A stretch of 47,400 nucleotides of DNA from Prochloraceae cyanobacterium (GTDB taxonomy: Bacteria > Cyanobacteriota > Cyanobacteriia > Cyanobacteriales > JASJDA01). A model generated the notes under the pieces. It was not told the origin of the DNA. It saw only the letters and a program-made list of their open reading frames with translations, and ran no database searches. Shown piece after piece: positions 45,103 to 47,078 of this stretch. Numbering within the stretch: position 1 is the first letter of the stretch; every line of letters starts with the position of its first letter. The stretch is from assembly GCA_030065755.1 (NCBI GenBank), contig JASJDA010000060.1, forward strand, positions 1 through 47,400, written 5' to 3'. The position numbers were made by a program, and so were the translations under genes.

Positions 45103-46218
45103 ATGAATATGCAAATCACGAGTCCAGATCGAATAACCTACCCTATAGTAGAAACCTTTCATTCCATTCAGGGAGAAGGATACTGGACGGGTGTTAATGC
45201 CTTTTTTATTCGTCTAGGAGGGTGTGACGTTCATTGTCCTTGGTGCTTCGTCTCTGGGACTTCTATTTTAATGGGAGATTTGACAGAGAAACCGATTGAA
45301 ACTATTCAAATAGGCGATCGAGTAATGAGTTTCGATCGGGGAAAACTAGTCAAAACTAAAGTTACTCACGTTCATCGTCCCCGAATAGCACAAACGATCG
45401 CTCTTAAATTTGAATCTGGTTTAGTCACCTCTTGCACTCCAGATCATCAATATAAACTAATAGGAACAAATACGCTAAGACAGGCAGAATATATTCAAGA
45501 AGCATATTCCATAGATAAATCTAATTTAGATTTTACTGAGGCAGATATTGACGATCGCGCCGAATATTTAGTGGGTGCTGTTGCTAGAAAAGTAAGACAA
45601 ATTGAAAGCGAAGAAAAAAAGCAGTGGCTCAAACCAGACAAGGTTGTCACTCGCTTTTTTGCTGGAGCTAGGGAAGTGTATAATTTCGCTACGGAAAGCG
45701 GTTACTATTTTGCCGATCGACATTTAGTCAAGAATTGCGACACCAAGCAATCTTGGAATGCTTCCCTTCACCCCCAACGGGCGATCGAAGATTTAATAAA
45801 GGAAGCAACAACTGCTAACCCCGCTATTGTAGTTATTACTGGGGGAGAGCCTTTAATGCACGACCTCAACCCATTAACCGAACAATTGCATTCCCACCAT
45901 CTGCGGGTTCATTTAGAAACTTCTGGCGCACATCCTTTTAGTGGCGAGTTCGACTGGGTAACTTTTTCTCCGAAAAGATTTAAACCTCCTCATAACAGTA
46001 TCTACGATCGCGCAGATGAGCTGAAAGTAGTGGTAGCCAATACTGAGGATTTACAATGGGCAGAAGAACAAGCAGCTAAAATTCCCGATCGAGCATTGAA
46101 GTATCTCCAACCAGAATGGAATACTCCAGACAGTCAAGAGTTAATCTGCCAATACATCTTACAACATCGCGAGTGGCGTTTAGGACTGCAAATTCATAAG
46201 TTTTTGGGAGTCAGGTGA
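45103..46218 (+). CDS. queE: QueE (7-carboxy-7-deazaguanine synthase) interrupted by an in-frame mini-intein
   Basis: The 371 residues comprise a 207-residue QueE host and a 164-residue intein. QueE is the radical-SAM enzyme forming the deazapurine ring of queuosine from carboxytetrahydropterin. Host motifs are [33 protein letters not shown] and a C-terminal QPEW region. The iron-sulphur motif would be [11 protein letters not shown] (CxxxCxxC). In the precursor it is cut between Trp47 and the third cysteine: residues 48-211 are intein, and Cys212 is both the +1 extein residue and the third cluster ligand. Without splicing the [4Fe-4S] site is split, so activity should need splicing. queC, acting two steps later in preQ0 synthesis, follows. 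Confidence 0.97.
45244..45735 (+). other. Mini-intein in QueE (no homing endonuclease)
   Basis: 164 codons. Block A is [13 protein letters not shown] with Cys1, continuing [17 protein letters not shown]. Block B is [14 protein letters not shown] with the TxxH set (Thr65, His68 of the intein). Block F/G is [18 protein letters not shown] and LVKN, ending in Asn164 before the +1 Cys of the host. Only about 70 residues lie between blocks B and F and no LAGLIDADG or HNH motif is seen, so it is a Hint-only mini-intein. The penultimate residue is Lys163 instead of the usual His, a known but uncommon variation that can slow Asn cyclisation. Confidence 0.95.
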
Positions 46219-46378
46219 GTGGGGAGTGTGGGGAGTGTGGGGAGTGTGGGAAGTGTGGGGAGCAGGGGAGCAGGGGAGCAGGGGAGCAGGGGAGCAGGGG
46301 AGCAGGGGGAGCAGGGGAGAGGGGGAGAGGGGGAGAAACAAACAGCAAACAGCAAACAGCCAATAGCAAACAACTAAT
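46219..46378. repeat. G-rich short tandem array plus AACAGC-type tail
   Basis: GGGGAGTGT units (46220-46258) pass into GGGGAGCA units and GGGGGAGA runs (to about 46333), then AAACAAACAGCAAACAGC and related units (46334-46378). It lies between queE and queC. The array is open in frame with queC and would add 56 low-complexity residues, but the true queC start is after it. The same composite repeat occurs at 34810-34935. Confidence 0.9.
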
Positions 46379-46382
46379 AAAA

Positions 46383-47078
46383 ATGAACAAAGCTGTAGTA
46401 TTACTATCTGGAGGTTTAGACTCCGCCACAACTGCTGCGATCGCTATTTCTGAAGGATACGAGCCGATCGCTCTTTCTTTTCGTTACGGTCAACGCCACG
46501 AAAAAGAATTAATCGCAGCCGCTAAAATAGCTAAAGCTTTGGGCATCAAAGAACATTATACGATCGACATTAACCTATCTCAGTGGGGCGGCTCTTCTCT
46601 TACTGACTTTTCGATCGCTGTACCTAAAGATGGAGTCAAACCAGATATAATTCCTTCTACTTATGTACCAGGAAGGAATACAGTATTTATCGCGATCGCT
46701 CTCTCCCTCGCAGAAGCTAAAAATGCTGTTGCTATTTATCTGGGTATCAATGCTGTAGATTATTCTGGCTATCCTGACTGTCGTCCTGAATATTTAGAAG
46801 CTTATCAAAAACTTGCCAATCTCTCTTCTAAAGCAGGAGTAGAAGGAAAATCCCCTAGGTTAGTCGCACCTCTGGTTAAAGACTCGAAAGTAGATATTGT
46901 TCGTCGCGCACTAAGTTTAGGAGTGCCTATTGAAGATACTTGGTCTTGTTATCAAGGTGAAGATCTACCCTGCGGTGTCTGTGATTCTTGTCGCATTCGC
47001 GATCGCGCTTTAATAGAAGCAGATCGACCGGATCTAGCTACCCCCGCAGGAAGAGAATTTTTTTCCTCGGTTTTTTAA
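46383..47078 (+). CDS. queC: 7-cyano-7-deazaguanine synthase QueC
   Basis: 231 residues. QueC turns carboxy-deazaguanine into preQ0 with ATP and ammonia. The start [20 protein letters not shown] holds the PP-loop [49 protein letters not shown] and the zinc site [21 protein letters not shown] follow. I choose ATG 46383 because QueC proteins begin a few residues before the SGG motif, although the frame is open from 46215. It follows queE after a repeat-filled gap. Confidence 0.96.

Follow-up and report, generated by a model that had tools for sequence, protein, structure and literature searches.

Among the hosts of described inteins, one that closely resembles the case presented here is MoaA, a radical SAM enzyme. 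In the P. abyssi MoaA intein, a native Cys-3/Cys1 pair at the N-splice site can control splicing (PMC10663303, PMC3922620). The NCBIfam models described as intein-containing cover radical SAM proteins of the Rv2578c and Tes kinds, with none for QueE among the matches obtained. Elements of this kind, sites of this type, and the switch that may act here all have precedents; what is new, within the literature searched, is QueE as the host, a family of viral QueE inteins, and the probable repeated invasion of one splice site. The author of a first-pass annotation of this locus knew of no intein in QueE, and the open-access literature searched holds no report of an intein in QueE, which within those bounds appears to be an unreported host.

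The interrupted queE gene

The window, by which we mean the whole stretch of 47,400 nucleotides analyzed here from a Prochloraceae cyanobacterium, carries an interrupted queE gene near its end, followed by queC; QueE acts early in queuosine synthesis. A slash marks a splice junction throughout. The features are:

45103-46218, plus strand: queE precursor ORF interrupted by the intein, 371 amino acids plus stop, ATG start, frame open throughout
45103-45243, plus strand: N-extein, QueE residues 1-47, ending GGC-DVH-CPW and holding the first two cluster cysteines
45235-45237, plus strand: codon of Cys45, second cluster ligand and intein position -3, a possible redox partner of Cys1
45244-45735, plus strand: mini-intein of 164 amino acids, residues 48-211, from Cys1 to Lys-Asn, endonuclease domain not found
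45436-45447, plus strand: block B (TxxH) as TPDH, intein residues 65-68, placed by alignment of QueE inteins
45676-45735, plus strand: blocks F and G, with the terminal Asn and penultimate Lys
45736-46215, plus strand: C-extein, QueE residues 212-371, opening with Cys+1, the third cluster ligand, in CDTK
46383-47078, plus strand: queC (TIGR00364), located downstream of queE and next after it in the preQ0 pathway

The gap between queE and queC is occupied by G-rich tandem repeats (units GTGGGGAGT and GGGGAGCA, then CAAACAG; window 46206-46372).

The flanks of the insert read GGC-DVH-CPW/intein/CDTKQSW. It had been proposed in the first-pass annotation that a mini-intein splits the cluster motif of QueE, that intein-free homologs would join exactly at CPW/CDTK, and that the +1 extein cysteine supplies the third [4Fe-4S] ligand. 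Alignment with 29 intein-free cyanobacterial sequences, the best matches of one search (loci L002-L030), agrees at each point: exactly residues 48-211 are absent from all 29, and residues 44-47 and 212-215 align without a gap in every one. Given the exactness of this gap, Cys-3 and Cys+1 are the second and third cysteines of CX3CX2C, and the motif is complete after predicted splicing. The lengths given earlier for spliced QueE (207 residues) and for the intein (164) are also correct. The mini-intein is real, as judged from exact excision in 29 of 29 relatives, the Hint fold, and viral inteins at the same site.

Motifs, models, and fold of the insert

As expected of class 1 inteins, Cys1 (residue 48) lies at the exact splice boundary as N-terminal nucleophile, block B is present as TPDH, with T65 and H68 nearly invariant across 10 aligned QueE inteins, and Asn164 is followed directly by Cys212 (+1). 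The penultimate residue is Lys163 where His is usual, a common but non-defining feature of the class; in block F, aligned by eye, Asn stands at the usual Asp and Tyr at the usual His (the usual residues as described in PMC4031507). Judged from sequence, these three replacements could slow splicing.

Model matches to the insert all fall under the curated cut-offs: Hom_end_hint at 1.2e-6, covering residues 1-31 only, Hint at 2.5e-4, and TIGR01445 at 9.4e-5. The assignment as an intein draws on these weak matches together with exact excision, the fold, and the same-site viral relatives. As befits a mini-intein, no endonuclease model in Pfam or NCBIfam matches the insert at E up to 1; an endonuclease remnant sought in a 13-residue stretch is too faint to claim, its score being equaled in 208 of 5000 shuffles.

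An AF2 model was built from an alignment of 17 precursors (mean pLDDT 78.3, pTM 0.68), with pLDDT below 50 for residues 118-177, the linker in which longer relatives hold their endonucleases. By VIA-align, its intein part has the Hint fold, superposing on the Ssp DnaB mini-intein M86 (6frg) with Z 15.6 and rmsd 2.0 over 123 residues, and model residues 45 to 211 align with -3 to 159 of 3nzm, the redox-trap structure of a DnaE intein and its N-extein. A Tetrahymena BIL domain matches the model equally well (Z 15.6, rmsd 1.8, 116 residues); by fold, BIL chains are about equal to inteins. BIL domains have no conserved nucleophile after the terminal Asn and do not sit in conserved enzyme motifs. 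Here, Cys+1 is present and the site lies within the cluster motif, so that the insert departs from a BIL domain on both counts. Chance or misassembly is ruled out by exact excision and by the same-site viral relatives.

The host enzyme and its upkeep

QueE models are the best five NCBIfam matches of the precursor and also the five matches listed for the joined exteins at E 1e-10, the latter all under cut-off; the joined exteins score 142.6 against TIGR04322 (E 1.1e-41, cut-off 200). The QueE fold is evident from superposition of the AF2 model on E. coli QueE (6nhl: Z 22.3, rmsd 2.2, 36% identity, 192 residues). The source genome, 96.6% complete, yields a single QueE match at E 0.001, which speaks against a second copy. 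Adjoining queE is queC (TIGR00364 QueC, 227.9 bits, cut-off 150.3), and both Tgt and QueF score above cut-off in the same genome; the single QueE match, the adjacent queC, Tgt, and QueF together indicate that the queuosine pathway has been kept.

In a tree of 46 exteins, those of the window fall inside a cyanobacterial QueE clade of 30 rows (support 100/100), on an end branch of 0.15 compared with 0.36 for the intein-free congener, so that there is no acceleration. Seven pairwise comparisons among the 29 relatives give dN of 0.22-0.24, with dS at least 1.2 or saturated. A queE gene killed by an unspliced insert should not look so conserved, and from the single QueE match and the unaccelerated position within the clade it follows that the precursor very probably splices and the intein is very probably active. 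Since the splice site is a catalytic metal ligand, splicing must precede QueE activity and could be followed through QueE assays and tRNA-Q readouts.

Inteins at the same site in viral QueE genes

Pattern scans of IMG/VR recovered at least 17 QueE genes with an insert at the same site, 16 of them with both junctions. One of the QueE patterns, in which a hydrophobic residue follows the third cysteine, returned 16 stretches, all 16 of which are QueE in frame; both junctions are present in 15, and the remaining one, L297, is cut by the contig end and resembles the start of L301. L199, from a separate scan, brings the both-junction set to 16 (L130, L141, L199, L214, L292-L296, and L298-L304), and at L199, L300, and L302, the contig ends inside an extein. 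The arrangement CX3CX2/C.../C-D is found in all 16, a sharing of site that is partly built into the search patterns. The terminal residue is Asn in 15 of the 16, and the penultimate residue is His in 14 and Lys in L141. The exception at both positions is L130 (9115-10086), a QueE intein that ends in Gln with penultimate Asp instead of the usual Asn with His.

Lengths range from 142 to 337 residues: 13 of the 16 lie between 254 and 337, and three are below 171. Endonuclease models match five of the 10 viral QueE inteins scanned with Pfam (four LAGLIDADG_3 and one weak HNH_3), which is five of the seven scanned in the 254-337 class. The exteins lie outside the cyanobacterial QueE clade in the 46-extein tree. 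At six of the seven loci tested, folE, queD (PTPS), or queC is found among the neighboring ORFs, three of 10 ORFs being without a match; these neighborhoods fit 7-deazaguanine pathways in phages.

In a sample unselected for inteins, the best 80 of at least 321 viral QueE relatives, two have an insert, both at the same site and on the contigs of L294 and L130; by regular expression, 69 are uninterrupted and nine were not classed. Where distances were taken, which upstream of GGEP was possible in 72 of 80, no other long insertion was seen. Among isolated phages, no place covers 80% of the query among the tblastn matches listed, and in the 24 phage records listed (of 154 and 60), QueE falls in two pieces spanning less than 0.85 kb, too short for an intein. 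A match in Vibrio phage 13VV501A (OQ622096.1, 47172-49673) belongs instead to a helicase-like protein that has two Hint inserts and is annotated only as a P-loop NTPase.

The mini-intein first described in QueE stands, but it is no isolated occurrence: its splice site is occupied by inteins in viral QueE genes as well. The viral set turns a single curiosity into a family open to comparison and assay.

Rarity in cyanobacteria and inteins of Rv2578c-like proteins

The intein used as a query finds matches in five of 243 genomes of the order and five of 386 of the phylum at E 0.001, the source genome being included each time. Where the hosts of the other matches were read (L037 left out), they are Hint-bearing ORFs (L032-L035) and DnaE (L036). 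In the congener, the only other genome of the family examined, QueE matches in two adjoining pieces, and the congener is therefore without the intein. A pattern scan of GTDB (GGC, W before the splice site, a hydrophobic residue at 2, and Gly at 5) returned 54 stretches with no QueE in frame, the narrow pattern being one that would miss many viral forms. By eye, further inteins were noticed in the source genome in DnaE (two places), DnaB, and DnaX (contigs C232, C367, and C376).

A profile of ten QueE inteins matches 178 of 388 genomes of the order at E 1e-6, mostly, to the extent inspected, through other inteins or Hint domains; hosts were read at seven loci (L385-L388, L390, L391, and L395). 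The four strongest matches, all in one family, outrank the window's own, covering all 318 positions at E 1e-45 to 3e-39. These (L385-L388, in genomes G638, G640, G554, and G597) are 339-amino-acid inteins in an Rv2578c-like radical SAM protein, not QueE, with splice sites GC-x-HGCTF/C...THN/CYVP, i.e., CX3CX2/C at the third cluster cysteine. L387, the one scanned, carries LAGLIDADG_3, and its host was assigned by NCBIfam scan. The remaining profile loci, read by eye, are two DnaE and one ribonucleotide reductase. An intein thus occupies the equivalent cysteine of a different cyanobacterial protein.

An IMG/VR contig (L249, 2617-5114) carries an Rv2578c/PA0069-like radical SAM gene in which an intein starts at CPYNCLY/C and ends VHN/CYANAF in a second overlapping frame, either a fractured gene or a split intein.

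Relationships and origin of the intein

Two intein trees were built from blocks A-B and F-G, the first with 54 rows and the second with 52, including the Rv2578c-like inteins. Before either tree, 27 of 58 viral Hint loci without a recognized C-terminal block were dropped, as were L256 and L290; the second also omits six duplicates and the long-branched L291. The window's intein falls in a clade of 12 rows, together with six viral QueE and five viral terminase inteins (support 98/93 with 54 rows, 100/88 with 52). The terminase inteins (L234, L235, L237, L239, and L246) have as host the terminase large subunit, PHROG 38 in all five, and ends of the KN/C form recur in viral L141 and in L234, L235, L237, and L277. 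Another viral QueE intein, L294, joins the Rv2578c-like inteins instead (99/93, 52-row tree).

On the 52-row tree, the 16 viral QueE inteins need three label changes, and a single clade of all QueE inteins is rejected by an AU test set post hoc, after the tree was seen (p 0.030); from these two results, inteins probably entered this codon on more than one occasion. The tree does not recover a clade restricted to the seven LAGLIDADG-type QueE inteins, the window's included, nor does the test reject one (p-AU 0.082); a terminase intein is thus as possible an ancestor as a QueE intein. The window's intein has a long end branch of 1.5 and a highest identity to any row of 38% in the 54-row tree, and direction and donor are for this reason not fixed by the tree.

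Single-sequence matching ranks L303, a viral QueE intein outside the 12-row clade, first (45.5 bits), then L130 (41.3), with L032, a cyanobacterial Hint domain, third (33.0). An origin from a cyanobacterial Hint domain was first suspected from such matches, and the trees give it no support. The DnaB, DnaX, and full DnaE inteins of the source genome were rejected as origins (0.4, 1.6, and 2.9 bits). CGATCG, the core of the cyanobacterial HIP1 repeat, is present in five copies in the intein, and 0.7% of the 492-base stretches sampled across the window hold at least as many; among the 16 viral QueE inteins it is absent from 14 and occurs once in two, a loose comparison. The intein has no copy of GCGATCGC, the eight-base form of HIP1, and third-position GC is 0.28 there vs 0.38 in the exteins. 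The CGATCG count suggests long residence in a cyanobacterial genome. Most likely, the intein is a descendant of a phage lineage that has lost its endonuclease.

Proposed mechanism and alternatives

We propose that the single chromosomal queE carries, between cysteines two and three of CX3CX2C, a class-1-type mini-intein that has no endonuclease, so that the cluster motif is split in the precursor. By established class 1 chemistry, the Hint domain would activate Cys1, the N-extein would move to Cys+1, and Asn164 would cyclize, yielding the 164-amino-acid intein and a 207-amino-acid QueE in which the former +1 cysteine serves as third cluster ligand. Most likely, the intein goes back to the intein lineage that phage QueE and terminase genes carry today, settled in a cyanobacterial queE that was itself inherited vertically, and lost its homing endonuclease. 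Through the Cys-3/Cys1 pair of CPWC, oxidizing conditions may slow splicing, as in P. abyssi MoaA; this is the least certain step. We hold the proposal as a whole, from splicing through phage-lineage descent to possible redox slowing, with high confidence.

Two competing accounts concern the nature of the insert. If the intein did not splice, queE would be dead or the precursor only cleaved, with the pathway lost or fed by a scavenged precursor. The atypical state of three assisting residues (His to Lys, Asp to Asn, and His to Tyr) speaks for such a loss, but KN/C termini are shared by other viral inteins whose reading frames are open, and the 371 open codons, the unaccelerated exteins with their low dN, and the presence of queC, Tgt, and QueF make it highly improbable. 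Only marginally better are the prospects of an insert outside the phage intein lineage, namely a Hint domain of the kind that cyanobacteria have in secreted or intein-like proteins, inserted by chance into queE. Matches to Hint domains of large cyanobacterial ORFs (56-58% over 43 residues), with L032 in third place, invite that idea; against it, blocks A, B, F, and G together place the insert in the 12-row clade with viral inteins, L032 and L033 lie elsewhere, and Asn plus Cys+1 stand at the exact splice position.

The splicing intein of phage lineage being preferred, its possible regulation is a separate matter. A redox or metal switch on QueE splicing, put forward in the first-pass annotation, is plausible by analogy. 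That the intein has been kept as a regulatory switch, with a Cys-3/Cys1 disulfide or a bound metal blocking splicing as long as the cell is too oxidizing for an oxygen-sensitive radical SAM enzyme, we regard as unlikely. The CPWC geometry is that of the MoaA intein of P. abyssi, whose splicing the Cys-3/Cys1 pair can control (PMC3922620 and PMC10663303), the first residue of the structural alignment, Cys45, falls on position -3 of 3nzm, the redox-trap structure, and inteins recur at the equivalent cysteine in QueE and Rv2578c-like proteins. The geometry is nevertheless forced by the site, as Cys-3 is a cluster ligand that any intein there inherits; moreover, the congener and the 29 aligned cyanobacterial QueE manage without an intein, and rarity and phage kinship suit a parasitic element. 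A more general form is a little less likely again: the third cluster cysteine of radical SAM enzymes might be a general landing and sensing site, where phages with 7-deazaguanine synthesis keep several independent homing-intein lineages in queE and cells, having acquired such inteins, shed the endonuclease but keep the splicing domain as a Cys-3/Cys1 redox gate. If this were true, a redox gate would license an oxygen-sensitive enzyme, here in an oxygenic phototroph.

Comparison with known systems

The P. abyssi MoaA intein resembles the QueE intein in its radical SAM host and in the Cys-3/Cys1 pair at the N-splice site; it differs in residing in another enzyme and in an archaeon, and the likeness is drawn from the published description of the pair. 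The mycobacterial SufB intein (PMC8891592) has a host from Fe-S metabolism, but SufB is an assembly scaffold rather than a radical SAM enzyme, and no homology of site is claimed.

Positions 67-143 of the Rv2578c-family model (NF038136) align with window residues 39-110, across the splice site. The Rv2578c-like cyanobacterial inteins share the CX3CX2/C site with the QueE intein; they differ in occupying another radical SAM family, in their length of 339 amino acids, and in belonging to another clade, the mycobacterial family being known here through the NCBIfam model. With the MoaA precedent, recurrence at this cysteine in QueE and Rv2578c-like proteins makes the possibility of redox-gated splicing in radical SAM enzymes directly testable.

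Viral terminase inteins fall with the window's in the 12-row clade, three of five end KN/C, and they differ in host. The viral QueE inteins have both the host and the splice site of the window's, L141 ending VKN/C as well; they differ in that 13 of 16 are 254-337 amino acids long and in having QueE exteins from outside the cyanobacterial clade.
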